Below are positions 7,493-32,662 of a stretch of DNA of 35,542 nucleotides, piece after piece. The notes under the pieces are model-generated. The model saw only the letters and a program-made list of their open reading frames with translations, searched no databases and was not told the DNA's origin. The stretch covers positions 1 through 35,542 of IMG/VR virus record IMGVR_UViG_3300010334_002550; one strand, given 5' to 3'. The position numbers and the translations under genes were made by a program. Every line of letters starts with the position of its first letter. Position 1 is the first letter of the stretch. The DNA is from a virus.

Positions 7493-8797
7493 ATGCCATC
7501 ACTTAGCTCCTTTATCAACTCAAGTCAATATTCATCAGAAAGCACAACAAACAAATTGTTGGCGGGCATGGATTTAGGCTCTGCATATGCCGGAATAACC
7601 TTTAACGGGGCATCAGGATCGGCAGGAAATGACCCCGGTGGCCTTTTTGGTTGGTTGATTTATTCTAGAAGATACAAATACACACCACAAAAAGGAAATA
7701 CTTACGATCCATATATTGTTTATACTAACCCACAAGATTTGGTTGGAGATTTAAATAAACTTGGTGGGATAACATATGCATTGGTTGGAACATCGGGTGG
7801 AGGTGGCACATATAGTCTATTCTTGAATACCGGTACCGTAAATAATGTTGTAAGATTGGCACCAACATCAATAGGAACAGATTTCTTACATGCTATAAAT
7901 TATTTGGCTTACGGTGGTACTCTTGTTGTGGCTCCAGATACAACGGGATTTGATTTATATCAAAATATCACAACAAATAAGTTAGATGTAATCATAGGAC
8001 AACAAGGGACAACTGCATTAGCACAATGGCTAATCAATCAAAAATATAGTGTAGGCATTTTCCCATCTGGCGCCGATAGCGCGGGTGTAACCGGAAATGG
8101 TTACACCATGGCAGATTATGCAACATTGTTTGGCGACAGCACTTTAGTATCAGGAACAACAGTAGCGAATAGAATTTTTAATGTGTATGGAATAAAAACT
8201 GTAACAAACCTAGATACAACTACTTTAGTAAGTGGAAGCAAACTTACCTACAGTATCCCTGCTGTAGGAGATGTTGGTGGCTTCTTTGCTAGATCTAAAA
8301 ACAGAAACCTTTTATACCTAAGTGTAGCCGGTTTAAATCTTTCAACCATATTGAATGGAACGATCAGTAACTCCATAGAGTGGAGTAATTCAATAAAAAC
8401 TGCTCTGAGAACAAACAGAGTAAACTTCTTTGTAAATCCAACGGCTTTACCACAATTTTTAGGTGCTGATTTAACAGGTGCAACAGCAAATTCCACAATT
8501 GTCCAAGAAGATAGAATTGGCGTTTCAAAACTTAAATCAGCAATCAACAACGATCTGACTACAATTGGATTGAAATATCTTTTCCAACCAAATGATGCTA
8601 CGACAAGATCGCATGTAACATCTGAAATTAAAACTGCTATAAGCAAATATTCACAATTTATATTTACACAAAATACACAAATAATTTGTGATAGCACTAA
8701 TAACACAGATCAAAGCAGCGTACTGGTTATGACTGTAGTTGTTCAACCAATACTCAGTTTGGATAGTTTTGAAGTAACAGTAACCGTCTCACAATAA
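7493..8797 (+). CDS. 18: Tail sheath protein gp18-like
   Basis: Encodes 434 residues. The conserved C-terminal sheath domain is clear: a segment starting GVSKLKSAINNDL, then LFQPNDATTRSHVTSEI, SKYSQFIFTQNTQIICDSTNN and a final beta hairpin V-V-V-Q-P-I-L-S-L-D-S-F-E-V-T-V. These strands form the handshake between subunits that lets the sheath contract. T4 gp18 has 659 residues; this version lacks much of the surface-exposed domains inserted in the middle and is therefore a compact sheath. It starts after a CTAAATA late promoter with a good Shine-Dalgarno and runs with a one-base stop/start overlap into gp19. Confidence 0.88.
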   Translation: MPSLSSFINSSQYSSESTTNKLLAGMDLGSAYAGITFNGASGSAGNDPGGLFGWLIYSRRYKYTPQKGNTYDPYIVYTNPQDLVGDLNKLGGITYALVGTSGGGGTYSLFLNTGTVNNVVRLAPTSIGTDFLHAINYLAYGGTLVVAPDTTGFDLYQNITTNKLDVIIGQQGTTALAQWLINQKYSVGIFPSGADSAGVTGNGYTMADYATLFGDSTLVSGTTVANRIFNVYGIKTVTNLDTTTLVSGSKLTYSIPAVGDVGGFFARSKNRNLLYLSVAGLNLSTILNGTISNSIEWSNSIKTALRTNRVNFFVNPTALPQFLGADLTGATANSTIVQEDRIGVSKLKSAINNDLTTIGLKYLFQPNDATTRSHVTSEIKTAISKYSQFIFTQNTQIICDSTNNTDQSSVLVMTVVVQPILSLDSFEVTVTVSQ

Positions 8798-9339
8798 TGG
8801 CAAATACAAACTCAATAATTAATTTTAAGAATGGGTTTAATGGCGGTACAAGAGCCAACAGATTTATCGTTGTTCCAGAATGGCCTAGTAAAGTGCCCCA
8901 TACACAGAATGATGCTTCATTCAAAATGGTTTCTGCTTCGTTGCCTGCTGTTCAAATAAACACAATTATAGTTCCATATAGAGGAAGAAATGTAACTTTT
9001 CCAGGTGATCGTCAATATAGTACTTGGGCTGTTGGTATGTATGATGACAACAACTCCACAAATTTGTGGAAGTCAATGCAGACTTGGACTGAATTGATGG
9101 ATGGTAGCATAAACCATACTGTTGATAATGATGATTATTCTTTTACCAAGTTGCAAACAACTTGGTTGGTAAAACAATTAGATTCAAACGGAAACATTTT
9201 AAAGACAATTACATTATATAAATGTTGGCCATCTGTTGTCGGTGAAATAAATTTGAGCATGACTGAGTTGGGATTTGTTGGATTCAGCACAACCCTTACT
9301 TTTGATTATATCAAAATTCAAGATAACTATAATAGTTAA
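8797..9339 (+). CDS. 19: Tail tube protein gp19-like, copy 1
   Basis: Encodes 180 residues; T4 gp19 is 163. The T4 tube layout is visible: an N-terminal G-G-T-R-A-N-R-F strand, the V-S-A-S-L-P-A-V segment, P-Y-R-G-R-N-V-T-F-P-G-D-R then Y-S-T-W-A-V-G, an exposed loop, LDSNGNILKTITLYKCWPS and a closing strand T-L-T-F-D-Y-I-K-I. gp19 stacks as hexamers forming the inner tube through which DNA leaves. It directly follows the sheath gene with a one-base overlap (TAATG). It is closely related to the next gene; this copy has the more gp19-like position, so it is the more likely main tube protein. Confidence 0.85.
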   Translation: MANTNSIINFKNGFNGGTRANRFIVVPEWPSKVPHTQNDASFKMVSASLPAVQINTIIVPYRGRNVTFPGDRQYSTWAVGMYDDNNSTNLWKSMQTWTELMDGSINHTVDNDDYSFTKLQTTWLVKQLDSNGNILKTITLYKCWPSVVGEINLSMTELGFVGFSTTLTFDYIKIQDNYNS

Positions 9340-9344
9340 TTACC

Positions 9345-9863
9345 ATGCTTAATGATTTCAAGAACAATTTCTTTGGTGGAACAAGAGCCAATAGATTTAG
9401 AATTACAGGAACTTTTCCCACCGGAGGTCAATTTACTGACTTTCATGTAAGAGCAGCAACAATTCCAAACACAGCATCCAAAACAATTTCATATGATTAT
9501 TTTGGAAGAAAATTTCATTATCCCGGTGAACGTGATTATGGAACTTGGTCTTTTACTGCATGGGATGATACGGGAAGCAATAATATCTGGGGACAGTTGC
9601 AGAAATGGCATGATAATATAAACAATCATGATACAAATATTAGCAATTTGGATGCCAGAAACTATAAAGCAGACAATTGGAAAATACAACATTTAGATCT
9701 AAATGGAAATGTAGACCCATTAAAAGAATTTGTTTTACATGGTTGTTGGCCGGCTGGAATTCAACAAATAACCCTAAATATGGGTAATCCAAATACGTTA
9801 AATAGTTTTAACGTTATTGTGGTTTTTGATTATGTCGAAATAACGAATATTACTAAACGATAA
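9345..9863 (+). CDS. Tail tube protein gp19-like, copy 2
   Basis: Encodes 172 residues and is plainly a paralogue of the preceding gene. Shared positions include N-G/F-F-G-G-T-R-A-N-R-F at the N-terminus, G-R-K-F-H-Y-P-G-E-R-D-Y-G-T-W-S in the middle, LDLNGN, G-C-W-P, and F-D-Y-V-E-I at the end. The surface loop (residues ~75-105, rich in His, Asn and Asp) differs most. Either the tail tube is built from two kinds of subunit, or this copy makes a special ring such as the tube start or tip. It lies five bases after copy 1 and eight before the portal gene, and is transcribed with them. Confidence 0.8.
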   Translation: MLNDFKNNFFGGTRANRFRITGTFPTGGQFTDFHVRAATIPNTASKTISYDYFGRKFHYPGERDYGTWSFTAWDDTGSNNIWGQLQKWHDNINNHDTNISNLDARNYKADNWKIQHLDLNGNVDPLKEFVLHGCWPAGIQQITLNMGNPNTLNSFNVIVVFDYVEITNITKR

Positions 9864-9871
9864 GGTGAAAA

Positions 9872-11443
9872 ATGGAATTAGATTTATTTGGATTTCAATT
9901 TGGAAAGAAAAAAACCGAGAAGGTAAATCAACAGGAAGTTTCGGTACAAGCATTTACCGCTCCTGAAGTTTATGATGGTACAATTACCATCGAGGCAGGT
10001 GGTTTCTTTGGAACTGCGCTAGATTATGGCGCAATGATGCGTGATGAAACGCAATCAATCATTCAATACAGAAATATGTCTGTATATCCCGAACTTGATA
10101 ATGCAATCGATGAGATTGTCAACGCAGCAATCGTACCGGGAACAGACCATAAGCCAGTAAAATTGGATTTATCTAATTGTCCAGTTTCAGATAATATCAA
10201 AACAAAAATATACAAAGAGTTTGAAACCATTTTGCATTTATTGGATTTCAATCACAAATCATATGAAATTTTTAGACGTTGGTACATAGATTCTAAAATT
10301 TATTATAACATAGTAATAAATAAAGATCTTCCAAGTGAAGGAATTCAAGATATCATTCCAATTGATCCTCTCAAGATCAAAAAGGTAAGAAAAGTAAATA
10401 AAGAACACAATAAGGGCAACAGCAATCAAGTGTTGCAAGTTGTAAAAGACATAGAAGAATACTATGTTTATACAAATACCGATAAAGAATCATATGTAAT
10501 GACTGGACCTCAGGGTCTCCATCTATCTTTGGATAGCGTTGTATATGTCCCCTCGGGATTGGTAGATTTAAATAGCAAAAGAGTTTTAGGATATTTGCAC
10601 AAAGCCATTCGTCCACTAAACATGTTGAGACAGATGGAAGATGCTTTGTTGGTTTATAGAATTGCTCGTGCACCAGAACGCCGCGTATTTTACGTTGATG
10701 TTGGCCAATTACCAAAACAAAAAGCCGAACAATATATGCGTGATATGATGAGCAGATTCCGCACAAAACTCACATATAACCAAGATACAGGTGAAGTTCG
10801 TGATGAACGAAAATATCTTTCAGTTTTGGAAGATTATTGGTTGCCTCGCCGTGAAGGTTCAAGAGGAACCGAAATCACAACCTTACCCGGCGCACAATCT
10901 CTTTCGCAAATTGAAGATGCGGAATATTTCAAGAAAAAATTATATGGAAGTTTGAATGTTCCATTGAGTCGTTTGCAACCAGAAACAAATGGTTTCAATA
11001 TGGGACGGTCAACAGAAATAACAAGAGAAGAAATTAAATTCTATAAATTCATTGACAGATTGAGATATCAATTTTCCAGACTTTTCTTGGATGCTTTGCG
11101 CGTTCAGTTGTTGTTGAAAGGCGTGATGACCGATGAAGACTGGATCCATCTCAGATCAGATATCAAGTTTGTATTCAATACAGACAATTATTTCTGGGAT
11201 TTGAAAGAATCTGAAATTTTGGCTGAACGCCTAAAGATGCTTGGTTATGTAGAACCATACATCGGTAAATATTTTTCAACTGAATATGTTAAGAAAAATA
11301 TTCTCAAATATCCACCAGAAGACTTGCAAGAACTTGAAAAACAAATGGCTACTGATCGTCAACGAATTGCACAAGAGCAGGCTGCTGCGGCGGCGCAACA
11401 GGCTGCACAAGCAGGTCAAGGTGGCCAACAACAAACAGGTTAA
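9872..11443 (+). CDS. 20: Portal protein gp20-like
   Basis: Encodes 523 residues, almost the same as T4 gp20 (524). The conserved core reads YWLPRREGSRGTEITTLPG, then a run of A-Q-S-L-S-Q-I-E-D-A-E-Y-F-K-K-K-L-Y and N-V-P-L-S-R-L. Portal dodecamers sit at one head vertex, initiate prohead assembly and pass DNA. An N-terminal lead is followed by G-G-F-F-G-T-A-L-D-Y and Y-P-E-L-D-N-A-I-D-E-I-V-N. The C-terminus is an Ala/Gln/Gly-rich tail of about 30 residues, likely disordered. AAGGTG just before the ATG serves as Shine-Dalgarno. Confidence 0.95.
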   Translation: MELDLFGFQFGKKKTEKVNQQEVSVQAFTAPEVYDGTITIEAGGFFGTALDYGAMMRDETQSIIQYRNMSVYPELDNAIDEIVNAAIVPGTDHKPVKLDLSNCPVSDNIKTKIYKEFETILHLLDFNHKSYEIFRRWYIDSKIYYNIVINKDLPSEGIQDIIPIDPLKIKKVRKVNKEHNKGNSNQVLQVVKDIEEYYVYTNTDKESYVMTGPQGLHLSLDSVVYVPSGLVDLNSKRVLGYLHKAIRPLNMLRQMEDALLVYRIARAPERRVFYVDVGQLPKQKAEQYMRDMMSRFRTKLTYNQDTGEVRDERKYLSVLEDYWLPRREGSRGTEITTLPGAQSLSQIEDAEYFKKKLYGSLNVPLSRLQPETNGFNMGRSTEITREEIKFYKFIDRLRYQFSRLFLDALRVQLLLKGVMTDEDWIHLRSDIKFVFNTDNYFWDLKESEILAERLKMLGYVEPYIGKYFSTEYVKKNILKYPPEDLQELEKQMATDRQRIAQEQAAAAAQQAAQAGQGGQQQTG

Positions 11444-15988: not shown

Positions 15989-16513
15989 ATGAGCTGTACT
16001 TCAAATATAAATCCCCTGTACAACAGTTATTTTACTTTGTTCTTTGGAAGAGGAACAAATCAATTTGAATTAAATTGCCAGAAAGCAAATTTACCTGGTT
16101 GCACAGTACCCGATGTAAATCAGCCAACAATCTTTGGTACAACAATCCCGGTGCCAACATTACAATTCAACTATGAAACTTTGAATGTTGAATTTATTGT
16201 AGATTCAAATTTAGAAAACTGGAAAAGCATATACTCATGGATGAGAAATATGGCAAATATTGATACTGATACTGAATATAATCTGGATTACCAAGATTGG
16301 CATCATCAAGCGACATTAAACATTTATGATCCTACTACACAGTGCCCATCAAACAAAATTTTATTCCATTATATTCTTCCAATGAAACTTAGTGGAATTC
16401 AATTCCAATCAGACAGCGCAGATGCTATATTGCAAAAAGCAACTTGCCAATTTAAATATTCATATTATACATTCTGCCCCGATGCTCCAAATGATCTGAA
16501 AAACACTTATTAA
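15989..16513 (+). CDS. Tail-tube-fold protein, possibly the gp3-type tail completion protein
   Basis: Encodes 174 residues. The pattern FGRGTNQFELNCQKANLPGC, then V-P-T-L-Q-F-N-Y-E-T-L-N-V-E-F-I-V-D, N-W-K-S-I-Y-S-W-M-R-N-M and alternating C-terminal strands resembles the tail-tube fold (gp19/gp54 type), although identity to the two gp19 copies is low. Aquatic T4-like phages carry gene 3 (tail-terminator, about 176 residues in T4) at exactly this place, between gp23 and uvsW. Length and place therefore suggest gp3, but a minor tube protein is possible. Its last four bases overlap the convergent gene's stop (TTAA), and no terminator lies between them. There is no Shine-Dalgarno before the ATG. 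Confidence 0.6.
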   Translation: MSCTSNINPLYNSYFTLFFGRGTNQFELNCQKANLPGCTVPDVNQPTIFGTTIPVPTLQFNYETLNVEFIVDSNLENWKSIYSWMRNMANIDTDTEYNLDYQDWHHQATLNIYDPTTQCPSNKILFHYILPMKLSGIQFQSDSADAILQKATCQFKYSYYTFCPDAPNDLKNTY

Positions 16514-19251: not shown

Positions 19252-19902
19252 ATGATTATTGATTTAAGAGAAATACCGGTTGTTTGGATTAATTTAGATA
19301 AAGATACCGAAAATGCTAAAAAAATGGTAGATCAATTTGAACGTTATGGTTTTAAAAATCATATTCGTTTTTCTGGATTGACACCAGATAAGATAGATCC
19401 TCCTATAGAAAAAAATTGGTATGGTTTTGGTTGTGGTATGTCTCATGTAAAAATTTTAGAAACATACAAAGATATTCCACTTTTAATTCTAGAAGATGAT
19501 GCTAAAATAACAGAAGATTTTGATCCGATATTAGAAGTCTCAGAAGAAATAGATGGTGTATATGTGGGAACATCTTCCGGCAATCCTTATTATATGACTA
19601 AAAGATATAATAAGGATTTTTTCCGTATTGGTAATATTTTAAGCACACACGCTGTTCTTTATTTAAAAGATCAATTTAAACAAAATGTAGCAAATGTTAC
19701 CAAATTGTTTGTTTATCATTATAAACAACCAGTAGATATTGGTGTTGCTAGCATTCTTCAACATCATAAAGTTTTGGCTCCCAATAAACCTTTCTTTGTT
19801 CAAGCAGATGACAGAGAAAGCAATAATAAATGGGAATCAATTACTGCTAGACCGTTGATAGATAAAAATAGTATATTTCCAGACGAGGTTATATCTATAT
19901 GA
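19252..19902 (+). CDS. Glycosyltransferase, GT25-like
   Basis: Encodes 216 residues, the first gene of the sugar array. GT25 features are seen: an N-terminal V-V-W-I-N-L-D-K-D segment for nucleotide binding, F-G-C-G-M-S-H-V-K-I-L (residues 59-69; the family pattern is G-x-x-G-C-x-x-S-H) and L-L-I-L-E-D-D-A (77-84), the acidic motif that binds metal and sugar-nucleotide. GT25 enzymes add galactose or related sugars to lipooligosaccharide or proteins. Donor and acceptor cannot be deduced. It has a GAGG ribosome site and its own upstream promoter, and overlaps the next gene by four bases. No transmembrane segment is visible. Confidence 0.75.
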   Translation: MIIDLREIPVVWINLDKDTENAKKMVDQFERYGFKNHIRFSGLTPDKIDPPIEKNWYGFGCGMSHVKILETYKDIPLLILEDDAKITEDFDPILEVSEEIDGVYVGTSSGNPYYMTKRYNKDFFRIGNILSTHAVLYLKDQFKQNVANVTKLFVYHYKQPVDIGVASILQHHKVLAPNKPFFVQADDRESNNKWESITARPLIDKNSIFPDEVISI

Positions 19903-20837
19903 TTACAGTAAAATGTCCTGTTAGAATTTCTTTAATTGGTGGATCTAGTGATCTTGATTCCTATATTCAAAAACATAAAAAAGGTTCTGTAATATCTTTT
20001 ACGCCAAAAATTTATACTTATGTTTCTATATATAAAGATTTAATAGGTAAAAACACATTAGAACAAAAATATATTGTAAATTATTCAGTAAGAGAAGAAG
20101 TTTCTTCTATTTCTGAAATAAAAAATTCATTAGTCAAAATATTTTTTGAAAAAGAAAACGTGACTCCTTGCTCAATTCATCTTACCAGTGATGTGTTTTC
20201 ACATGGATCTGGATTGGCTACATCTTCGTCTTATGCATGTGCAATATCAAAAGCAATATCTGAATTTAAAAATGATCCTATTTCAGATATTGAATGTGGA
20301 GTTAGATCGCATTATTTGGAAAAAATAGCAAATCCATTATTAGGCCAACAAGATGTATTCGGTTGTTGTATCGGTGGTTTTAAAAAGATTGAATTTACAC
20401 AATCAGGATTACCAAAATATACTTTTTTGCCAACAAAGTTTTTTGATTATTTTACTCCATATTTGATGTTTACTGGATTAACAAGAAATTCTACTGAAGT
20501 ATTGAAATCGGTTTCAACTCCAGATGATGATGTTTTTAATCCTTTGGTAGATGAATCTGAAAAATATATTTTAAATGGTTCGTATGAAAAATTTTTATCC
20601 ATTTTATCACGAGGATGGGAAGAAAAGAAAAAATCATCTAAAGATGTTTTAAAAGATCAATTAATAAAAGATATGGATGAATATTTAAAAAATTATCCAA
20701 ACTGTATATCTCACAAGTTATGCGGAGCAGGTAATGGTGGATTCTTTTTATGTTTTTTCCCTAATGATAAATTACCCACAGATACTAGATTTTTTAAACT
20801 AACACTGAGTACAACAGGAGTTCAAAGAGTTATATGA
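19899..20837 (+). CDS. GHMP sugar kinase, HddA-like (heptose-7-phosphate kinase family)
   Basis: Encodes 312 residues. GHMP motifs: N-terminal P-V-R-I-S-L-I-G-G-S-S-D (7-18), the phosphate loop H-G-S-G-L-A-T-S-S-S (102-111), and the C-terminal C-G-A-G-N-G-G-F-F-L (about 275-284). The N-terminal R-I-S-x-x-G-G-x-x-D form is the one of D-glycero-D-manno-heptose 7-phosphate 1-kinase (HddA) and of related fucokinase-type enzymes. The next gene encodes a GmhA-like isomerase that would supply its heptose-7-phosphate substrate, which favours HddA. The usual partner HddC is not recognised nearby. ATGA overlaps join it to both neighbours. Confidence 0.8.
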   Translation: MITVKCPVRISLIGGSSDLDSYIQKHKKGSVISFTPKIYTYVSIYKDLIGKNTLEQKYIVNYSVREEVSSISEIKNSLVKIFFEKENVTPCSIHLTSDVFSHGSGLATSSSYACAISKAISEFKNDPISDIECGVRSHYLEKIANPLLGQQDVFGCCIGGFKKIEFTQSGLPKYTFLPTKFFDYFTPYLMFTGLTRNSTEVLKSVSTPDDDVFNPLVDESEKYILNGSYEKFLSILSRGWEEKKKSSKDVLKDQLIKDMDEYLKNYPNCISHKLCGAGNGGFFLCFFPNDKLPTDTRFFKLTLSTTGVQRVI

Positions 20838-21343
20838 ATAATTTTATATCACAAATAAACGATGCTTTGCATAATTTAAATTCAGATAATTTAGATTATT
20901 TAAAAAAAATTGTATTAAGAAATAATTCAGAAATTATAATTTTAGGAAACGGCGGAAGTAATGCTATTTCTGCTCATATTGCCGAAGATTATACAAAAGC
21001 ATTAAAGAAAAAAGGAATTGCTTTTACAGATGGCGCCAGATTGACGTGCTATGCAAATGATTATGGATATGAGAATGCATTTTCTCAATATCTTTCAGAA
21101 TTTTCAACAACAAATAGCTTGGTTATTTTAATAAGTTCATCTGGCAATTCTAAAAATATTTTAAATTGTGCTTTATATTGTAAAGATAATGATATAGATT
21201 ATATTATTTTGTTTGGTTTTAGCCCAAATAACCAACTAAGAACAGTTTATAAAGATAAAGCCCTTATAGATTTTTGGGTAGATTCTACGGATTATGGTGT
21301 TGTTGAATGTGTTCATGAAATTATTTTACACTCGGTGATCTAA
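20834..21343 (+). CDS. gmhA: Sedoheptulose-7-phosphate isomerase, GmhA-like (SIS domain)
   Basis: Encodes 169 residues (E. coli GmhA is 192). Motifs are G-N-G-G-S-N-A-I-S-A-H-I-A-E-D (38-52; H48 and E51 match the zinc ligands of the family), T-C-Y-A-N-D-Y-G-Y-E-N (71-81), the SIS phosphate loop S-S-S-G-N-S-K-N-I (101-109) and a C-terminal E-C-V-H-E-I-I-L-H in which Glu stands where E. coli has zinc-ligand Gln. The reaction is sedoheptulose 7-phosphate to D-glycero-D-manno-heptose 7-phosphate, the first committed step to nucleotide-activated heptose. The gene is four bases into hddA's end and one base shared with the next gene. Confidence 0.85.
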   Translation: MNNFISQINDALHNLNSDNLDYLKKIVLRNNSEIIILGNGGSNAISAHIAEDYTKALKKKGIAFTDGARLTCYANDYGYENAFSQYLSEFSTTNSLVILISSSGNSKNILNCALYCKDNDIDYIILFGFSPNNQLRTVYKDKALIDFWVDSTDYGVVECVHEIILHSVI

Positions 21344-22059
21344 TGATTTATTGTTTTGATCTTGACGAAACTCTTTGTACAAAAGCCATAAATGGAGATT
21401 ATGCTACAGCAAAACCAATTAAAGAAGCCATTGAAAGAGTCAATAATCTTTGGTTATTGCGCCATAAAATATTAATATTTACTGGAAGAGGATCTAGTAG
21501 CGGAAAAGACTGGACTGAATTGACAAAACAACAACTAAAAGAATGGAATGTTTATCATGATGAACTTATAATGAATCGTAAACCAACTTATGATGTAATT
21601 ATTGACGATAAGGCTATAAATGCTCTTGAATGGAGAAACACTTTCTGCAAAACACGTGGAGTAGTTGCAGGGGCTTTTGATCTAATTCATCCCGGATATT
21701 GCAAACTATTTAAATTCTGCAAAGAACAATGTACACATCTTACTGTTTTATTGCATGATGATCCATCATGCGAACGAAATAAAATGAAACCAGTTCATTC
21801 GTTGGAAGAAAGAATGGAAATCTTAAAGTCTATTCGTTATGTTGATGATGTCATACCTTACACGGATGAACACAATCTTGCTATAAAATTGGAATTGGGT
21901 TGGTATGATGTTAGATTTTTGGGTGATGATTATAGAGATAAAAAATTTACAGCAGATTACCTCCCTGTAAAGGTTATATATACTGATAGATCACATGGTT
22001 ATTCGACCACAGATCTTAAAAAGAAAGTTGCATATTCTTATTCGGAGTTTATGAAATGA
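21343..22059 (+). CDS. HAD phosphatase fused to an HxGH-type nucleotidyltransferase
   Basis: Encodes 238 residues in two domains. Residues 1-100 are a small HAD phosphatase: D-L-D-E-T (6-10), F-T-G-R-G (46-50) and I-I-D-D-K-A (86-91), of the type found in capsule clusters (D-W-T-E-L-T-K-x-Q-L-K-E-W). Residues 105-238 form a cytidylyltransferase-like domain: G-A-F-D-L-I-H-P-G-Y (110-119), then R-S-H-G-Y-S-T-T-D-L-K-K-K (216-228). The second His of HxGH is Tyr here, a departure at an ATP/CTP-contact position. In the heptose route, phosphatase (GmhB) and nucleotidyl transfer (HldE C-domain) follow kinase action, so this one protein could do both. Nucleotide specificity cannot be told. Confidence 0.75.
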   Translation: MIYCFDLDETLCTKAINGDYATAKPIKEAIERVNNLWLLRHKILIFTGRGSSSGKDWTELTKQQLKEWNVYHDELIMNRKPTYDVIIDDKAINALEWRNTFCKTRGVVAGAFDLIHPGYCKLFKFCKEQCTHLTVLLHDDPSCERNKMKPVHSLEERMEILKSIRYVDDVIPYTDEHNLAIKLELGWYDVRFLGDDYRDKKFTADYLPVKVIYTDRSHGYSTTDLKKKVAYSYSEFMK

Positions 22060-22955
22060 AAATATTAGTTACAGGTGGTTGTGGTTTTATTGGTAGCCAT
22101 TTAGTAGATGCTTTAGTCGAATTACAGCACGATGTTATTGTTGTAGATGATTGTTCTGCAAATAATGAAAAATTTTATTTTAATAATAAAGCAACCTATC
22201 ACAAGGTTAGCATTTGTGATAGAGAAAAACTTATTGATATATCTAAGGGATGTGAGTTCTGTTTTCATTTGGCTGCAGAATCACGTTTACAAAATGCTAT
22301 TGAAAATCCTACCAGAGCAATTGATGTCAATGTTGGTGGAACATTAAATTTATTAGAAGTTTGTAAAACCAATAATATAGATGGTTTAGTTTTTTCATCA
22401 ACATCTTCTATATATGGATTGTCAAAATCATTTCCCATCACAGAAGAAAACAAAGAAAATTGTTTAAATCCATATGCATCTACAAAATACTGTGCGGAAC
22501 TTTTGTTAAAAAATTATTATGATATGTATGGTATCAAATCTTGTATTTTGAGATATTTTAATGTATTTGGAGAAAGAGCACCAACTAAAGGACAATATGC
22601 ACTGGTTACCGGAATTTTTTTAAGACAAAAATTAAATAAAGAATCTCTTACTGTTGTAGGTAATGGATTACAGGAGAGAGATTTTATATATGTAAAAGAT
22701 ATTATTAATGCAAATATAGAATGTATGCGTTCATGGAAAAGTAAATATTCTTTAACAAAAGCAGATGTATTTAATATAGGTTATGGAAAAACTGTTAAAG
22801 TAATAGATTTAGCTAAATCAATTGATAATAATATTATTTTTATTGAAGAGCGAAAAGGAGAGGCTGTAAATAATCTATCTTCATATGCTAAATTTTGTAA
22901 ACTAACTGGTTGGGCTCCAACAACACATATTTTAGATTGGATTAAAACACAATGA
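22056..22955 (+). CDS. NAD-dependent sugar epimerase/dehydratase (extended SDR)
   Basis: Encodes 299 residues. It has the Rossmann motif T-G-G-C-G-F-I-G (6-13), the catalytic S-S-T-S-S-I-Y-G segment (114-121) and Y140-x-x-x-K144 in N-P-Y-A-S-T-K, followed by L-R-Y-F-N-V-F-G. These are the features of UDP-glucose 4-epimerase-type enzymes that act on nucleotide sugars. The substrate might be the activated sugar made by the preceding genes, or a hexose. It overlaps its neighbours by ATGA at both ends. Confidence 0.82.
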   Translation: MKILVTGGCGFIGSHLVDALVELQHDVIVVDDCSANNEKFYFNNKATYHKVSICDREKLIDISKGCEFCFHLAAESRLQNAIENPTRAIDVNVGGTLNLLEVCKTNNIDGLVFSSTSSIYGLSKSFPITEENKENCLNPYASTKYCAELLLKNYYDMYGIKSCILRYFNVFGERAPTKGQYALVTGIFLRQKLNKESLTVVGNGLQERDFIYVKDIINANIECMRSWKSKYSLTKADVFNIGYGKTVKVIDLAKSIDNNIIFIEERKGEAVNNLSSYAKFCKLTGWAPTTHILDWIKTQ

Positions 22956-23743
22956 TAACATATCAATACATGGGCCGTAGAGGTAGACTTGGAAATCAGA
23001 TGTTTCAATATGCAACTCTATATTCAATAGCTAAATATAATAATTACGAATTTGGAATACCATTTTCTTGCAGAAATGCAGAAGATGATTATCGTGATTT
23101 ATGTTTACAAGATTGTTTTCCAAATTTAACAGCTAAAGATTCTACAGGATTTATTCCAGTATCACAGGTACAAGAACAGACTAATCTTTTTGTTCCAGAA
23201 TTTTTTAATATAAAAGATAATAAAGATCTATATGGATATTTTCAAACTGAAAAATATTTTAAACAATACAAAGATGATATTTTAAAAGAATTTACATTTA
23301 ACAATTCTATTAAAGAAAAATGTAAAAATTTAAAACAATCATTGAATAATGAAATTATTTCAATACATATGAGATTTGGTGATTATGAAAGATTTTCTGA
23401 TGTTTATCCCAGACCAACTCCGGAATATTATTTAACTGCACTTGATATACTACCAAAAGATGCAACCATCGTATTATTCAGTGATGATTTAAATAAAGCA
23501 TCTTTATTTTTTAAACAAGTTGGAAAAGATTTTAAAATGTTTGAAAATCTTAATAAATTTGAAGACATGTGTTTGATGACTTTATGTGACTACCATATAA
23601 TGGCAAACAGCTCTTTTAGTTGGTGGGGAGCATGGTTAAGCAATTCAAATAAAGTAATTGCTCCAAAAAATTGGTATGGATCTGCACCCGGAGCACCTAC
23701 TGTGTGGTATGATACATATTGTGATAATTGGGAAATAATTTAA
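22952..23743 (+). CDS. Glycosyltransferase family 11 (alpha-1,2-fucosyltransferase-like)
   Basis: Encodes 263 residues. GT11 motifs: G-R-L-G-N-Q-M-F-Q-Y-A (11-21), H-M-R-F-G-D-Y (139-145, corresponding to HxRRxDY for GDP-fucose binding, with Phe replacing the second Arg), F-S-D-D, and M-A-N-S-S-F-S-W-W-G-A-W-L (217-229). Such enzymes transfer fucose to galactose in O-antigens and host-mimicking glycans. A GDP-mannose 4,6-dehydratase that could lead to GDP-fucose is encoded at the right end of the window. The Arg change weakens the assignment of exact donor. Confidence 0.85.
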   Translation: MITYQYMGRRGRLGNQMFQYATLYSIAKYNNYEFGIPFSCRNAEDDYRDLCLQDCFPNLTAKDSTGFIPVSQVQEQTNLFVPEFFNIKDNKDLYGYFQTEKYFKQYKDDILKEFTFNNSIKEKCKNLKQSLNNEIISIHMRFGDYERFSDVYPRPTPEYYLTALDILPKDATIVLFSDDLNKASLFFKQVGKDFKMFENLNKFEDMCLMTLCDYHIMANSSFSWWGAWLSNSNKVIAPKNWYGSAPGAPTVWYDTYCDNWEII

Positions 23744-24540
23744 TGGTAAATATATTTTGCGACACTGATGATTGGTCTCCAACTTTAAAGGCAATTCTTG
23801 AAAATAATACACATTTCAATAATATGAGTATTCACATTTCAATAAATTGTGCATCGTATGATCCATTAAAAAAATATAATATTTTAATTTTACAAGAAAG
23901 CCCAGCCGTTCTGAAATATAGAAATGTTTTATCTTTTTTATCTGATGAAAACAATCGTAAAAAATATTACAAAATTTATTCATGTATACCAGAATTAACT
24001 GAAAAATATGATATAGAATATATGCATCCTTCAAATATATCATGGATTTTAAATCCAATTTTTTTACCAAAAAAAACAAAATTAGTTAGCATGATATCAT
24101 CTAATAATAAATTTTTAGATGGACATAAATTTAGACTTAACATATTAGAATCTGTTAAAAATTTTGTTGATGTATATGGAAGAGGATTTAATCCTATTGA
24201 AAAAAAAGATTTAGGTTTAGTGGATTATTACTATTCAATAGCAGTTGAAAATGATGATACCAATAATTATTTTTCAGAAAAAATACTTGATTGTTTTATG
24301 ACATGCACTTTACCAATTTATTGGGGTTCTGAACATGTTTACAACATATTTAATCCAAAAGGTATAATAAATTTAAAAAATATAAATTTTGATGAAATTA
24401 AAAATTTAACAAAAGATTATTATATTAATAATTTAGATGCTATAATAGAAAATTATTTTATAGCACAAAAAGAAAATCGGTACGTGAATCACGCAATTCA
24501 AATAATATTGACAAAATTATATAATGAAAAGTACAATTAA
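23743..24540 (+). CDS. Glycosyltransferase family 10 (alpha-1,3-fucosyltransferase-like)
   Basis: Encodes 265 residues from the ATG at 23743, which shares one base with the stop of the GT11 gene (TAATG); this start is preferred over 23728, which would extend into that gene. The GT10 donor motif is seen at residues 166-195: I-A-V-E-N-D-D-T-N-N-Y-F-S-E-K-I, then C-T-L-P-I-Y-W-G-S. This corresponds to the FxFEN...YxTEK...PIYWG pattern of alpha-1,3/1,4-fucosyltransferases. Pairing with a GT11 suggests di-fucosylated or branched structures. It is AT-rich with many Asn/Lys/Ile codons, like its neighbours. Confidence 0.82.
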   Translation: MVNIFCDTDDWSPTLKAILENNTHFNNMSIHISINCASYDPLKKYNILILQESPAVLKYRNVLSFLSDENNRKKYYKIYSCIPELTEKYDIEYMHPSNISWILNPIFLPKKTKLVSMISSNNKFLDGHKFRLNILESVKNFVDVYGRGFNPIEKKDLGLVDYYYSIAVENDDTNNYFSEKILDCFMTCTLPIYWGSEHVYNIFNPKGIINLKNINFDEIKNLTKDYYINNLDAIIENYFIAQKENRYVNHAIQIILTKLYNEKYN

Positions 24541-25510
24541 TAAAAATATCGTATTGGTTGGACCAGGATTATTACAAATTCCCATTTCAGGAAAAAATGG
24601 ATGGGGTGGAATAGAAAACACTTTAACACATATAATCAAGGAATTTAAAATAAGAAATCAAGAATTTACTTTAGTAAATGATTCTATAAATTATAATAAT
24701 ATAGTCCGAGATATAACAAAAAATAATGATTGCATAGTACATGTACACTATGATGAATATGCGGAAGATTTATACAAAAATAAAAATTATTCTTTAGTAT
24801 CAACTTCACATTCTCCATATCATCCATATACAAGTATGTGGTTAGAACATACAAAAAATCATTTTAATCGTTTATTCACAAATATAGATGCATATTTTGG
24901 ACAAGCTCATATATCAAATATGCACGCAAAACAAATAAATCCAAACTTATTTTTAGGTTTATGTAGATGTGGAATATCTGAAAATGAATTTATAAATTTT
25001 AGAAAAAATAAAGGAAATAAAAAATCTTTGGTAATTGGAAAAATAGAAGGTAGAAAAAATCAAGCATTATTACAACAAACATTTTCTAATGATTTATATA
25101 TTGATTTTGTAGGACAAAATATTGATCCAAATTTTAAAGAAATGGATGTAGGAAAAACAAAATATCTTGGAAGTTGGTCTAGAGAGCAAGTTTATTCAAA
25201 AATGACAGAATATAGTACAATAATATTATTATCATCATTTGAAGGAGATGTTGGTGTTATAAAAGAAGCAATTGCTTCAGGTTGTAGTGTGGTTGTATCA
25301 AAGAATGCTTCTTTAAATTTGGATATTGATTTGCCATTCATTAAAGTATATGATACAATACAAGATAAAAATATTTTTATAAACGATATAAATATAATGA
25401 ACGAAGAGAATGAAAAATACAGACCTTTTATTTTTGAATATTTTAAAAATAAATTTGATGTATCCGTGACTGTAGATGAATATATTAATTCTTTGAATAA
25501 TTTATGTTAA
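24524..25510 (+). CDS. Glycosyltransferase, GT4-like (GT-B fold)
   Basis: Encodes 328 residues. A GT-B layout is visible: a Gly-rich loop G-K-N-G-W-G-G-I-E (23-31) near the start, the central hinge, V-I-G-K-I-E-G-R-K-N-Q, and the EX7E motif E-G-D-V-G-V-I-K-E-A-I-A-S-G (about 242-255) that binds the donor. This is a retaining family such as GT4. Sugar specificity is unknown. It overlaps the preceding gene by 17 bases and the next by 7. No signal peptide or membrane helix is seen, so it is probably soluble or peripheral. Confidence 0.75.
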   Translation: MKSTINKNIVLVGPGLLQIPISGKNGWGGIENTLTHIIKEFKIRNQEFTLVNDSINYNNIVRDITKNNDCIVHVHYDEYAEDLYKNKNYSLVSTSHSPYHPYTSMWLEHTKNHFNRLFTNIDAYFGQAHISNMHAKQINPNLFLGLCRCGISENEFINFRKNKGNKKSLVIGKIEGRKNQALLQQTFSNDLYIDFVGQNIDPNFKEMDVGKTKYLGSWSREQVYSKMTEYSTIILLSSFEGDVGVIKEAIASGCSVVVSKNASLNLDIDLPFIKVYDTIQDKNIFINDINIMNEENEKYRPFIFEYFKNKFDVSVTVDEYINSLNNLC

Positions 25511-26268
25511 AAACTACTTTAATAATACCTGTTAAAATTGATAGTGTAGAAAGAAAAAATAATGTTGAAACAACATTAAAATATATTTTTAAAAATACTG
25601 ATTGTAAAATTATTATAAAAGAGAGTGATTTAGAACAAAAACTTTTTGTAGATTCTAATAATCGTATTAGATATTTTTTTGAAAAAAATAATACTGGTAT
25701 ATTTCACAGAACCAAATTACTGAATGAGATGTTACACTTAGTAGACACTCCCGTAGTTGCAAACTATGATGCGGATATCATTCTTTATCCAGAGACATAT
25801 AGACAAGCTGAACAGTTAATTTTGGAACAAAATTATGATTTAATTTATCCATATAGGTTTGAACAAATGGATCAGATTAAGATATTTCCAAATGCATACG
25901 ATACTATAAATTTTTATAATTCATTAGATTTGAATGATATTCATATAACACATTTAAATAAATATTTTTGTCGTTATGGTCATGTTCAATTTTTTAAAAC
26001 CGATTCATATAGATCTGGATTTATGGAAAATGAAAACTATATTGATTGGGGTCCAGAAGATGAGGAAAGAGGTCTTCGTTTTGTTAAATTGGGGTACAAA
26101 GTATCATGGATTAAAGGATTAGTCTTTCATCAAGAACATCCTCCAAGTATAAGAAAAGAACAATTCAATAAAAATGAAGAATTGCATTCAAAAATTAAAC
26201 AAATGAATAAACAAGATTTAGTTGAATATTATAGCAAACAAGATTACCTAAAAAAATATAAAAAATGA
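25504..26268 (+). CDS. GT-A glycosyltransferase, galactosyltransferase C-terminal (GT7/GT2-like)
   Basis: Encodes 254 residues. The start is T-T-L-I-I-P-V-K as in GT2 enzymes. D-A-D (89-91) within V-V-A-N-Y-D-A-D-I is the metal-binding DXD. The segment S-G-F-M-E-N-E-N-Y-I-D-W-G-P-E-D-E-E (171-188) followed by R-F-V-K-L-G-Y-K-V and F-H-Q-E-H (208-212) is the Glyco_transf_7C pattern, where W-G-x-E-D supplies the catalytic acid. Galactose or N-acetyl-hexosamine transfer is common in the family, but the donor cannot be fixed. The C-terminal ~35 residues are Lys-rich. It overlaps the next gene by ATGA. Confidence 0.78.
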   Translation: MLKTTLIIPVKIDSVERKNNVETTLKYIFKNTDCKIIIKESDLEQKLFVDSNNRIRYFFEKNNTGIFHRTKLLNEMLHLVDTPVVANYDADIILYPETYRQAEQLILEQNYDLIYPYRFEQMDQIKIFPNAYDTINFYNSLDLNDIHITHLNKYFCRYGHVQFFKTDSYRSGFMENENYIDWGPEDEERGLRFVKLGYKVSWIKGLVFHQEHPPSIRKEQFNKNEELHSKIKQMNKQDLVEYYSKQDYLKKYKK

Positions 26269-26888
26269 AAAAATTACTATTTTACACTTTTCATAGACAT
26301 TTGGATGAAATATATTATTCATCTTTATTTTTTAATAAAAGCGAGTTTTTAAAAAATAATTTTGAAATTATATTACATTGTAATAATACAAATACATCTT
26401 TAGATGATATTAAAAAAAGAAGTTTATTTGATACAAAAGTAGAAATTATATTAACTACAAAAAACGAAGGTGGATACGATTATGGTATTCCAGAAGCACA
26501 ATCTGACATGTATAACATGTGGAAAAATTATGAATATGTTTTATTTTCTCAACTAGATTGTTATATTGTAAATGATGAATACTTTAAAAATGTTTTTGAT
26601 ACCGATTTTGATGCCTTTGTATCACCTATAAATCATATTGGAAGAAACTGTTATATTGGTGATTTTTTTATGATAAAACCAAAAAGTAATATATTTGCTT
26701 ATTGGAAACAGGATAGGCAAAATAGAAATCCACATGTACATGAACATTATCTTGCTGATTGTATTGATTCAGAATATAATAAAATTAAAACATGTGAACG
26801 AATAGGACACCAACAAAGACAGATAGATAGTTACGGACTTTGGCACGAGCACAATAATCATAATGTAAGGAGCGTATTAGAACTATGA
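26265..26888 (+). CDS. Putative GT-A-like glycosyltransferase, family not recognised
   Basis: Encodes 207 residues. A segment N-E-G-G-Y-D-Y-G-I-P (68-76) followed after a helix by Y-V-L-F-S-Q-L-D-C-Y-I-V (91-102) resembles the donor-binding half of GT-A enzymes, with LDC-Y at the position of the DXD motif. Downstream are F-F-M-I-K-P-K-S-N, common in polysaccharide transferases, and a His-rich C-terminus (H-Q-Q-R-Q-I-D, W-H-E-H-N-N-H). I cannot name the family. Context, flanked by GT7C and a methyltransferase and coupled to both by ATGA overlaps, strongly suggests work on the same glycan. Confidence 0.55.
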   Translation: MKKLLFYTFHRHLDEIYYSSLFFNKSEFLKNNFEIILHCNNTNTSLDDIKKRSLFDTKVEIILTTKNEGGYDYGIPEAQSDMYNMWKNYEYVLFSQLDCYIVNDEYFKNVFDTDFDAFVSPINHIGRNCYIGDFFMIKPKSNIFAYWKQDRQNRNPHVHEHYLADCIDSEYNKIKTCERIGHQQRQIDSYGLWHEHNNHNVRSVLEL

Positions 26889-27496
26889 GCAATTTAGATC
26901 ATTTAGGTGGATTTTCTACACAAGAAAATATAGGAGATAATGCAACATATCATCCAATTTTATGGAAATATGTAATAGACAAATATAATATTAAAAGTGT
27001 ATTAGATGTTGGATGTGGTATGGGAATATCAACAAAGTTTTTTCATGATAATGAATGTAATGTTCAGGGAATTGAAGGACATCCTTTTTGTATAGAAAAT
27101 AGTAAAATGAAAGATTATATGCTTCATCATGATTATGCCCATGGCGAAAGCAATCTTTCCGATACATTTGATTTTTGTTGGTCATGTGAATTTGTTGAAC
27201 ATGTCGAAGAACAATATTCTAACAATTTTATTAAAGATTTTGCAAAAGCAAAAATTGTTATGATTACGCATGCAACTCCCGGACAAGGTGGTTGGCATCA
27301 TGTAAATTGTCAACCAGCATCATATTGGATAGAAAAATTAGCAAAACATGGTTTAATATATGATGAAAAGATGACAGAAGAAACTAGAAAAATTGCTGAG
27401 AGTGATTGGAAATTATATAGTCCTGGATATAAAAGCCACTATGTGGATAAAGGTTTAGTCTTTAAAAATAAACAACATGATGTATATATTCATTAA
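26885..27496 (+). CDS. SAM-dependent methyltransferase (class I)
   Basis: Encodes 203 residues. Motif I is V-L-D-V-G-C-G-M-G (39-47), followed by G-I-E-G-H-P as the acidic/ribose-binding strand and F-D-F-C-W-S-C-E-F-V-E-H-V (post-motif region), a form typical of methyltransferases in surface polysaccharide clusters. Downstream T-H-A-T-P-G-Q-G-G-W-H-H-V-N and P-A-S-Y-W-I are the pattern of small sugar O-methyltransferases. It would cap or modify a sugar hydroxyl. It joins the preceding gene by ATGA, and a three-base gap separates it from the next gene. Confidence 0.8.
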   Translation: MSNLDHLGGFSTQENIGDNATYHPILWKYVIDKYNIKSVLDVGCGMGISTKFFHDNECNVQGIEGHPFCIENSKMKDYMLHHDYAHGESNLSDTFDFCWSCEFVEHVEEQYSNNFIKDFAKAKIVMITHATPGQGGWHHVNCQPASYWIEKLAKHGLIYDEKMTEETRKIAESDWKLYSPGYKSHYVDKGLVFKNKQHDVYIH

Positions 27497-27499
27497 GAA

Positions 27500-28156
27500 A
27501 TGATAAAAAATATGAAAATTGGAATATCTATAGTTGGAATTTCCCATTTAGATGGAGAAAAAGCAAATTCTAGAGATAGAGTTGGAAGAATTGGAAGAGT
27601 AAGAAAATTTGATTGTTGTCCACCAAATGTCAATCAAAATTTAATTGAACCATTTAAAAAAGATCATGATGTTTCTATTTACTTGACAACATACCCCCAT
27701 GAATATCTGAATCAATTAATAGAAATGTACAATCCAACCAAATGCTCCACAAAAGATTTTGGTAATTCATTCATGCAACAAACCTATGCTGAGTCATTAA
27801 ATCAACTGGTGGATGAAGACTTAGATTTTATTATCAGTACAAGATTTGATATTTTATTTTCACAAGATATGTCAAAATTGTCTTATGATTTTAATAAAAT
27901 GAATGTTTTATTTAGAGAAAAAGATTGCAATCATTTAAATTATACTTGTGATAATTTTTATGCATTCCCTAAAAAATATTTAATTGATTTTGCAAACTCA
28001 ATAGGTGAACTATATCATGGCGGGGAAAGAAATGGAATGCATGGCACACTTCACCAGCTATCAAAAAAAATTAGTTATGATAATATCAAAATACTTGATG
28101 ATGTAGATCAACTAGGACACAACAACAATTACTATTACCTACCACACTCAGCATGA
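27500..28156 (+). CDS. Unknown protein in sugar array, possible glycosyltransferase
   Basis: Encodes 218 residues (or 214 if the ATG at 27512 is used). It contains D-F-I-I-S-T-R-F-D-I-L-F (about 113-124), reminiscent of the T-R-F-D form of the DXD site in some poorly characterised GT-A transferases, preceded by a helix E-S-L-N-Q-L-V-D-E-D-L. The N-terminus K-I-G-I-S-I-V-G-I-S is a plausible first beta-strand. The C-terminal half has F-Y-A-F-P-K-K-Y-L-I-D-F and a Gly/His-rich segment. No family name can be given; the context supports a role in glycan assembly. Confidence 0.5.
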   Translation: MIKNMKIGISIVGISHLDGEKANSRDRVGRIGRVRKFDCCPPNVNQNLIEPFKKDHDVSIYLTTYPHEYLNQLIEMYNPTKCSTKDFGNSFMQQTYAESLNQLVDEDLDFIISTRFDILFSQDMSKLSYDFNKMNVLFREKDCNHLNYTCDNFYAFPKKYLIDFANSIGELYHGGERNGMHGTLHQLSKKISYDNIKILDDVDQLGHNNNYYYLPHSA

Positions 28157-28779
28157 AAAAACTTGAAGCCATATTATTTGATTTGGATGGTGTTTTAGTA
28201 GATGCCTGCGATTGGCATTATAAAGCTTTAAATGCAGCTTTAGAAGATTGTGGCTACGATGCCATAACAAAAGAAGATCATTTAAAAAAATTTAATGGCT
28301 TGCCAACACGTGTAAAACTTAACATGTTAGATATAAATGAAAAACATGCATCAAGAATTAATAAATTAAAACAAAAATATACATTAAAAATTATAAAAAA
28401 CAATTCTAAAATAATGTTTGAAAAAATAGAATTGCACGAGTATTTGAAGTCGTGTGGATATAAAATAGGATGTGTTACGAATTCAATAAAAGAAACGGCA
28501 GTGGAGATGTTAAAAGCCACAGGACAGCTAGATTATATTGATATTCTTGTTACTAACGAAGATGTTTTGAACAACAAACCAAATCCAGAATGTTATAATT
28601 TTGCCATAAACAAATTAAATGTAAATCCCAAGAGCACTCTCTGTGTTGAAGATTCTGATATTGGATTGAGGGCAGCGTTTCTTTCAAGTGCATCTAACGT
28701 TTTACCAGTAAAAAATACCAATTACGTAAATCTTTCATATATAAAAACAATGATTGAAGATCTGGAGGCCAAGCTATGA
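28153..28779 (+). CDS. HAD hydrolase, beta-phosphoglucomutase/phosphatase type
   Basis: Encodes 208 residues. HAD motifs: D-L-D-G-V (10-14), T-N-S (109-111), K142 in N-K-P-N-P, and V-E-D-S-D-I-G (165-171). A helical cap lies between motifs I and II, as in subclass I beta-phosphoglucomutase-like enzymes. A sugar-phosphate phosphatase or mutase acting before the nucleotidyltransferase encoded by the next gene is likely. This is the second HAD in the array (the first is fused at 21343), so the two could serve different sugars. It overlaps both neighbours by ATGA. Confidence 0.85.
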   Translation: MKKLEAILFDLDGVLVDACDWHYKALNAALEDCGYDAITKEDHLKKFNGLPTRVKLNMLDINEKHASRINKLKQKYTLKIIKNNSKIMFEKIELHEYLKSCGYKIGCVTNSIKETAVEMLKATGQLDYIDILVTNEDVLNNKPNPECYNFAINKLNVNPKSTLCVEDSDIGLRAAFLSSASNVLPVKNTNYVNLSYIKTMIEDLEAKL

Positions 28780-29489
28780 AAATATTAATTCCTATGGCCG
28801 GAGAAGGCAGTAGATTTTCATCTGAGGGTTATACGTTTCCCAAACCACTTATTGATGTATTGGGTAAACCGATGATCCAACAAGTTGTTGAAAATTTAAA
28901 TTTTGATGCAGAATATATTTTTTTAGTAAGAAAAGAACATATTATAAAATACTCAGGTTTAAAAGAAACTTTAAATAAAATAACAAATGGAAAATACAAA
29001 ATAGTTGAAGTAGATCGTTTGACAGAAGGTGCGGCATGCACAGCGCTATTAGCCAAAGAATTCATAAATGACGATGACGATTTGTTGATAGCTAATTCGG
29101 ATCAAATTATAGAATATAGCAAAGATAATTTTTTATCTATTAAAAATCTTACAAACGTAGATGGTATAGTTTTCACATTCAATGCTCTACACCCAAAATG
29201 GTCATTTGTAAAAACAAATAAAAATGGATTTGTAACTGAAGTTGCAGAAAAAAATCCAATTTCTAATATTGCAACTTGTGGTATATATTGGTATCGTAAA
29301 GGTAAAGATTTTGTAGATTGTGCAGAAAAAATGATAAACAAAAACATAAGAGTAAATAATGAATTTTATATTGCTCCTGTATACAATGAATTTATTAAAA
29401 ATAAAAAATCTTTAATACCTTTTTTTGTGCATAAAATGCATGGAATTGGTACACCAGAAGATTTAAATATATATTTACAATCAATATGA
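28776..29489 (+). CDS. Sugar-1-phosphate nucleotidyltransferase (NTP_transferase family)
   Basis: Encodes 237 residues. The nucleotide-binding signature M-A-G-E-G-S-R-F (7-14), P-K-P-L-I-D-V-L-G-K-P-M-I (22-34), E-G-A-A-C-T-A-L (84-91) and the metal site A-N-S-D-Q (106-110) are all present. The enzyme would activate a sugar or polyol phosphate as an NDP derivative; the I-P-M-A-G-x-G-S-R-F form is common in capsule clusters but does not tell the base. It lies between the HAD gene and a phosphodiesterase-like gene, with 4-base overlaps. The HAD product could be its substrate. Confidence 0.85.
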   Translation: MKILIPMAGEGSRFSSEGYTFPKPLIDVLGKPMIQQVVENLNFDAEYIFLVRKEHIIKYSGLKETLNKITNGKYKIVEVDRLTEGAACTALLAKEFINDDDDLLIANSDQIIEYSKDNFLSIKNLTNVDGIVFTFNALHPKWSFVKTNKNGFVTEVAEKNPISNIATCGIYWYRKGKDFVDCAEKMINKNIRVNNEFYIAPVYNEFIKNKKSLIPFFVHKMHGIGTPEDLNIYLQSI

Positions 29490-29932
29490 AAATAATAGCA
29501 CACAGAGGAAATTTATATGGGCCAAATCCAGAATTTGAAAATCACCCCGACTATCTTGTTGCTTGTGTTAAAAATGGATTTGATATTGAAGTGGATGTGT
29601 GGCGAGTAAATAATAAATATTTTTTGGGACACGATATTCCTTTATACGAAACATCTGTAAATTTTTTAAATTCTTTGCCGGGTTGGTTTCATGCAAAAAA
29701 TATAGAAGCTATGGAACAATTGAAAGCAGATGGTCTTCATTATTTTTGGCACCAAAATGATTATTACACATTGACCAGCAAAGGAATTCCATGGTGTTAT
29801 CCAAAATACAAAAACAAATATGGCATATCTGTTGTTTTAGATAAAACAAATATAAATATAAATGAAATAAATTGTTTAGGTATTTGTACAGATTATGCTT
29901 TTTTTTATAAGAATGAAATAAATGGAAAGTAA
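29486..29932 (+). CDS. Glycerophosphodiester phosphodiesterase-like protein, short form
   Basis: Encodes 148 residues. GDPD signature residues are present: H-R-G (6-8) and P-E near residue 16, E-V-D-V (35-38) for metal binding and L-G-H-D (47-50) with the catalytic His. Typical GDPD proteins exceed 230 residues, so this is a shortened barrel. The rest (F-H-A-K-N-I-E-A-M, Y-F-W-H-Q-N-D-Y) follows the family up to about two-thirds of its usual course. It may act on a glycerol-phosphate or other phosphodiester substituent, or bind such a ligand without hydrolysis. The gene is in the NTase/HAD group and overlaps the next gene by 11 bases. Confidence 0.7.
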   Translation: MKIIAHRGNLYGPNPEFENHPDYLVACVKNGFDIEVDVWRVNNKYFLGHDIPLYETSVNFLNSLPGWFHAKNIEAMEQLKADGLHYFWHQNDYYTLTSKGIPWCYPKYKNKYGISVVLDKTNININEINCLGICTDYAFFYKNEINGK

Positions 29933-32091: not shown

Positions 32092-32662
32092 TTATTTTAT
32101 TTTTTCCAAACCAATCTATAAAGATAATAGAGGATTTTTTATAGAAAAATTTAATGTAACTACTAATAATTTTAAATTTGATATTAAACAAGTAAGCACT
32201 TCATTTTCAAAAAAATATACATTTCGTGGATTTCATTTTGAAGTGTATAATAAAATGAATAAAATTGTTCATGTTAAAGATGGCCATGTTGTATTTTTTT
32301 TATTAGATTTGAGATTAAAGAAACCATCAATACATAAAATTGAAATTAAATCGGCAAATAAAAAAGATGATGAATTAAAATTTTTATATGTTCCATGGTA
32401 TTATGCAATTGGATTTTTGACTTTTAAAAAAAGCACAGTAGAATATTTTCACGATTCAAATCGTAGTATAAATAATAGGTCAATAAACATAAAATCATTT
32501 AAAAATTTAAAAACTTTTTATAAAAAAATAAAACACATTAGTAAAAATGATTTTAATGCTCAGTCTTGGAAAGAATGGAAAAAAAATATGAATGAAACAA
32601 AATTTTTTAATCGTAATTTAGATATGTTGAAAAGATGTTTAAATACTGCACAAAAACTATGA
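32075..32662 (+). CDS. RmlC-like sugar 3,5-epimerase
   Basis: Encodes 195 residues. It has the cupin-type RmlC signature: D-N-R-G-F-F-I-E (17-24), T-F-R-G-F-H-F-E (49-56; the family pattern is LRGLHYQ with the catalytic His, here H54) and V-K-D-G-H-V-V-F-F-L-L-D-L-R. The A-H-G-F motif reads A-I-G-F here and Glu replaces Gln in RGxHxQ, so the active site has diverged. RmlC-type enzymes epimerise 4-keto-6-deoxy sugars at C3 and C5, or only one position. It overlaps the C-methyltransferase and shares ATGA with the next gene. Confidence 0.75.
   Translation: MNYNIDYFIFSKPIYKDNRGFFIEKFNVTTNNFKFDIKQVSTSFSKKYTFRGFHFEVYNKMNKIVHVKDGHVVFFLLDLRLKKPSIHKIEIKSANKKDDELKFLYVPWYYAIGFLTFKKSTVEYFHDSNRSINNRSINIKSFKNLKTFYKKIKHISKNDFNAQSWKEWKKNMNETKFFNRNLDMLKRCLNTAQKL

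Follow-up and report, generated by a model that had tools for sequence, protein, structure and literature searches.

The tube of a contractile phage tail is commonly described as a stack of rings made of one protein, with special rings capping the ends, and it is gp19 that forms the bulk tube as stacked hexamers. What, then, do two adjacent gp19-like genes make? The question is posed by a 35.5 kb stretch of virus DNA (35,542 nucleotides, hereafter the window), which bears a T4-type structural block. This block comprises a baseplate wedge, neck genes (adaptor Ad2, head closure Hc2), a sheath stabiliser and terminase subunits, together with the sheath, the two tube-like genes A and B, the gp20 portal, head maturation protease, scaffold, major head protein and a gp3-like gene (Table 1). 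A and B are two complete open reading frames, both starting with ATG. The sheath stop TAA overlaps the ATG of A (TAATG), an overlap present in 37 of 38 distinct A genes, and the spacing from A to B ranged from -1 to 12 bases over 34 distinct pairs. The nearest annotated phages were distant, at 49.6% for the portal (Pelagibacter phage Mosig) and 53% for the major head protein (cyanophages).

The sheath is short, with 434 aa against the 1980 bases spanned by T4 gp18, and very divergent: tblastn matched 683 phage records, none of them covering 80% of its length. Farther along this T4-type phage, a long same-strand gene run (19252-33549) holds many matches to sugar or glycan chemistry, including heptose kinase/adenylyltransferase-like, phosphoheptose isomerase-like and dTDP-4-dehydrorhamnose 3,5-epimerase-like genes, nucleotide-sugar epimerases, glycosyltransferases, a HAD hydrolase and weak methyltransferase matches. 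A Shine-Dalgarno-like word lay near 13 of the 36 start codons of the window (32% GC), and the host may be one with few such sites. A word scan of the + strand before 11703 found no TATAAATA, the T4 late promoter word; this says little.

Table 1. Tail, portal and terminator genes of the window, with the profile matches that identify them
Feature	Position	Strand	Evidence
Tail sheath (gp18-like), 434 aa	7493..8797	+	phrog_10581 6.4e-9, phrog_23 3.2e-7
A, gp19-family tail-tube protein, 180 aa	8797..9339	+	phrog_45 5.1e-30; profile and fold matches
B, second gp19-family tail-tube protein, 172 aa	9345..9863	+	phrog_45 1e-22; profile and fold matches
gp20 portal	9872..11443	+	PF07230 4e-168, phrog_213 1.5e-184
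gp3-like tail-tube terminator, a gene apart from A and B in a common profile family	15989..16513	+	phrog_45 6.3e-29

By sequence and predicted fold, A and B are true paralogues of the gp19 tail-tube family. They are 33% identical over 175 aa (E 4e-32, in a single comparison), both match phrog_45, both models have the tail-tube beta-sandwich fold, and both genes lie between the sheath and gp20. A sequence-only reading of this locus had placed two gp19-like genes after the sheath, and this was borne out to the exact coordinates, with the sheath upstream and gp20 downstream; the motifs it listed as shared are likewise there, with GGTRANRF and FDY in both proteins and the paired variants GRNVTFPGDRQYSTW / GRKFHYPGERDYGTW and KCWP / GCWP. 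The A-B match, together with the A-B pairs found across related loci, rules out chance resemblance or a gene-calling artefact. As a control, T4 gp19 scored 4.4e-63 against phrog_45, compared with the values for A and B in Table 1, and a Pfam-A search at E 0.001 returned no model for either protein. Profiles built from 19-sequence alignments had gp19 structures as their top structure matches, 9ev2 (2.5e-14) and 5iv5 (7.4e-13) for A and 5iv5 (5.3e-15) and 9ev2 (9.2e-15) for B. AlphaFold models were of moderate confidence (mean pLDDT 69.6 for A and 67.6 for B), and their best Foldseek matches were the Afp/PVC tubes, the KP1 tube 9ev2 and the T4 tube, with TM-scores of about 0.4-0.6. Closer structural comparison to T4 5w5f gave a VIA Z of 9.8 for A and 12.8 for B. 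In this comparison gp19 tied with T4 and KP1 baseplate-complex chains and with T4 gp3: for A, 5iv5_BG scored 10.6 against 9.8 for T4 gp19, and the leading scores for B were 13.3, 12.9, 12.9 and 12.8. Fold alone therefore cannot tell a tube protein from an initiator or terminator.

We then counted the members of this family. In T4, phrog_45 found exactly gp19, gp3 and gp54; the claim that T4 has one such gene holds for gp19, although gp3 and gp54 of T4 are members of this profile family too. Of the 17 T4-like reference records, the 14 full-size ones had three matches, two fragments had two and Campylobacter phage CPt10 had four, the identity of each match being checked for T4 and CPt10 only. 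In the window's own lineage, 11 of 20 contigs carried four matches (A, B, a gp3-like and a weaker gp54-like gene) and nine carried two or three. Five further relatives included three with all four (G021, G022, G023) and one without a gp54-like match (G024); in the fifth, G025, the fourth match was a second piece of its gp54-like gene, and this fragment had no gp3 match. T4 thus has one gp19 among three family matches, and the window lineage A plus B among four, so that the lineage has one extra tube-family gene, which by sequence is a gp19. Match counts need care here, as PHROGs groups the gp3-like terminator with gp19 and gp54 as tail tube and "tail tube" matches overstate the number of tube genes.

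Could the extra gene stand in for another family member? Many of the best phage matches of the gene at 15989-16513 were annotated as tail completion or tube terminator gp3, some as just "tail tube", and we rejected it as a third main tube subunit because these matches make it gp3-like. A gp3-like gene was present in 13 of 14 genomes compared, the window counted, the 14th being the fragment G025; replacement of an absent gp3 by A or B was rejected on this ground. Replacement of gp54 by B is less likely given a gp54-like gene, the identity of which rests on a weak match (phrog_45 2.1e-11 for the 198-aa protein of G001) and on a gp48-like gene nearby in the same genome (phrog_230, 2.7e-9 over 34 residues); in our 47-row tree a very long branch separates the gp54-like gene from T4 gp54. 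Given these separate gp3-like and weakly matching gp54-like genes, B appears to be added to T4's set. They also bear on whether B has left the tube altogether and now serves in assembly, or in some other part of the tail or neck, with its fold retained. We judge this improbable: a gp3-like and a gp54-like gene are already there, and by profile B matches T4 gp19 no less closely than A does (5.3e-15 vs 7.4e-13). The idea draws on the membership in the tube family of gp3 and gp54, which fold does not separate from gp19, and on the diverged stacking loop of B described below.

To what extent is the pair conserved? Five IMG/VR scans yielded at least 218 related loci, three of the scans contributing the best 80 of 164, 229 and 199 relatives; these loci include repeat fetches of contigs and reduce to 91 distinct A-B DNA blocks, or 57 clusters at 95% identity. 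A was followed by B in 215 of the 218 fetched loci (at least 218 being present in IMG/VR), the two sharing a strand in all 215, and the other three held B alone because their contigs end at or just before B; contig ends truncate some of the copies. Counting repeat fetches, every locus with room had the sheath directly upstream (197 of 197) and gp20 directly after the pair (201 of 201). The A-B pair is fixed in its lineage, a group of uncultured T4-like phages. No sister lineage with one gp19 was found among the IMG/VR relatives scanned (the best 80 of 164, 229 and 199 in three of the scans), and a pattern scan of genome contigs gave 42 matches with no relative among them. In tblastn against 50,697 phage records, A matched 1659 and B 954, each at one place per record, a result that misses distant second copies such as CPt10 gp150.

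The pair is also old. In the 47-row tree, A and B each formed a clade with support 100/99 and were joined with 99/98; in a reduced tree without the gp3 and gp54 rows, A+B had 100/98. The only alternative topology tested, in which A joined nine gp19s of cyanophage and pelagiphage type to the exclusion of B, was rejected (p-AU 0.0067). A and B being a single clade, one duplication preceded the radiation of the sampled lineage. With A and B 33% identical and both clades deep, a recent redundant duplication was rejected.

This history bears on the possibility that A and B are interchangeable and either can build the tube. The idea has been raised for Campylobacter phage CP220, in the virions of which gp18 and gp19 each occur in at least two types (PMC2853527). 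We consider it highly improbable here. Every fetched relative with a contig that extends over both genes has retained the two in the same order, and each gene has its own invariant residues; among interchangeable copies, loss or conversion would be expected in some lineages. The sheath tells the same way: the window's sheath had one match per genome in 7 of 7 relatives searched, as opposed to the several sheaths of CP220, although a very divergent second sheath would escape this search. With the same proviso, a second sheath as the partner of B was rejected.

A and B are both under purifying selection, the median dN/dS in close pairs being 0.051 over 66 pairs of A and 0.101 over 64 pairs of B. 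Over 13 genomes their mean pairwise identities were 0.665 and 0.669, compared with 0.568 for the sheath, 0.676 for the gp3-like gene, 0.80 for the portal and 0.825 for the major head protein. A and B distances correlated at r 0.90 in the same genomes; much of this value is explained by linkage alone, since both also correlated with the sheath and the portal (0.78-0.83). Equal conservation and correlated divergence, with that reservation, would suit a two-component tube that uses both proteins along its whole length, with A and B rings alternating or with mixed A3B3 hexamers. Precedents for mixed architectures in this fold include PDB 9vne, by its title a Bacteroides fragilis T6SS Hcp2-Hcp3 heterohexamer, and T5 pb6, which has a duplicated tube domain and makes trimeric rings (PMC8718954). 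On the sequence evidence such a tube is possible though doubtful, and the loop analysis below tells against it. Codon adaptation to gp23, taken as a proxy for copy number, gave no separation of a high-copy A from a low-copy B in 13 genomes: B was below A in gp23-likeness in 11 of them, and A was above the gp3-like gene in only 6. The proxy fails because sheath, portal and gp3 were not ordered by their expected copy number.

In most described tubes, the loop between beta2 and beta3 is the main ring-to-ring contact. The sequence-only reading had A and B differing in an exposed loop, which is partly correct. Between A and B themselves, 21 positions are fixed differently and lie scattered over the fold, with enrichment in no element (loop beta2-beta3 has 4 of 24 columns, P 0.36); measured against single-copy gp19, change is concentrated in loop beta2-beta3 of B. 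The latter emerged when A and B were compared element by element with 15 reference gp19s, one of which (AG-345-D19) comes from a 26.5 kb fragment. Likeness to gp19 in the loop was 2.60 for A and 1.23 for B, so that A is closer by 1.37 BLOSUM units per column (permutation p 0.0001; six of 14 elements were permuted, alignment columns being treated as independent). The difference stayed at 1.29-1.39 whichever single reference was dropped, and a sliding-window scan with redundancy removed had its maximum in the same loop at four window sizes (p 0.0014-0.0050). A retains the ancestral loop (residues about 49-72), and B has a derived one (about residues 40-65) that includes YFGRKxHYPGE; the loop falls in a low-confidence part of both models, from which its bounds derive. 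Asymmetry in the other elements was modest (-0.73 to +0.42 BLOSUM units), the lower extreme being the alpha-loop, where A is more changed than B (-0.73, p 0.02 uncorrected; not significant in the window scan, p 0.07-0.17).

An ancestral loop in A and a derived one in B suggest that A still stacks like gp19 and that a B ring would meet a different surface. The same result weighs against the two-component tube with A and B used throughout, as continued stacking of A on A would more readily account for the ancestral loop of A. The strands forming the barrel within a ring (beta2, beta3, beta5, beta6), moreover, show little A/B asymmetry against gp19 (-0.23 to +0.13). A changed stacking loop could, for its part, also be what alternating A/B rings need.

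Homology, predicted fold, synteny, a single duplication, joint retention, purifying selection and asymmetric loop change together lead us to propose a main tube of A, with B supplying one special ring, or a few, whose stacking partner differs; we give this reading a probability of roughly 0.48. More broadly, the tail tube probably contains two kinds of subunit and not one. An old gene duplication would have given rise to two tube subunits whose roles have since divided. A, with its start overlapping the sheath stop and its ancestral loop, would assemble as stacked hexamers into the main tube in the manner of gp19. B would form a hexameric ring or rings of its own, the changed loop docking on a partner other than an A ring, and would most likely sit at one end of the tube, adjoining the gp54-like initiator or the gp3-like terminator. 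The presence of B in virions, its hexamer formation, its position and its copy number we infer from sequence and models. A tube of two subunit types and one special ring had both been suggested from the sequence; both fit the ancient paralogues, joint retention, constraint, predicted fold and one sheath gene, and the loop analysis leans to a distinct B ring or rings, with A-on-A stacking kept. An obligate two-component tube, in which A and B alternate in rings or along the tube from end to end, seems rather unlikely to us; if true, it would be a contractile phage conduit made by two genes at near-equal stoichiometry and enclosed by one sheath protein. A duplicated tube subunit kept beside a seemingly single sheath gene constitutes a natural experiment. 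It suggests that two genes can share out the specificity of ring stacking, and whether a phage tube can be zoned or heteromeric could be read simply from the ratio of A to B in virions.

Among known systems, T4 gp19 and its relatives in phrog_45 share with A and B their profile, length, predicted fold and place in the genome, with gp18 on one side and gp20 on the other. In Klebsiella phage RaK2, adjacent ORFs encode gp106 and gp107, two virion proteins that are abundant and distantly related, one of them proposed as the tube; unlike A and B they have no detectable tube homology reported (PMC3622015), and the tube assignment is putative. In SPP1, gp17.1 and its extended form make a tube of two subunit forms at 3:1, as in a two-subunit reading of A and B, but SPP1 is a siphophage, both forms come from one gene by frameshift, and virions with gp17.1 alone are viable (PMC8718954), whereas here there are two genes.

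Campylobacter phages CP220, CPt10 and IBB_35 have more than one gp19 homologue, like the window lineage. For CP220, the authors could not distinguish mixed virions from mixed populations (PMC2853527), and virion proteomics of IBB_35 recorded three gp19 genes (PMC3322345). The sequence-only reading missed these published gp19 types, along with the gp3-like gene in the family and the lineage-wide pair. In CPt10 the copies are dispersed and several sheath genes have been reported, in contrast to the tandem pair and one sheath found in the window lineage; besides gp3, its tube-family genes lie at three separate places (L144 1098-1850, L140 2498-3088, L145 841-1599). CPt10 gp057 and gp044 grouped together (99/95) apart from A and B in the 47-row tree, leaving more than one candidate for the gp54 role; in the reduced tree gp057 fell beside A+B with support 51/14, a long-branch join.

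Two tube paralogues are also a feature of Afp, and Pvc5 is a ring on the baseplate side. In PVC extracellular injection systems, the tube paralogues Pvc1 and Pvc5 occur in one contractile machine with three sheath paralogues (PMC6748792), and single deletion of Pvc1, Pvc5 or Pvc7 abolishes particle production (as cited in PMC12210884). The PVC pair is like A and B, but in a non-phage system with three sheath paralogues; as genes of one phage, A and B match the Pvc5/Afp5 type in that one machine has a main tube protein and a paralogue of it. In searches of the open PMC literature we found no description of tandem gp19 genes in the window lineage. Several gp19 types in Campylobacter phage virions and two tube paralogues in PVC are already known (PMC2853527 and PMC6748792), and what sets the present case apart is the tandem gp19 pair, its lineage-wide retention and the one sheath match in each of seven relatives.
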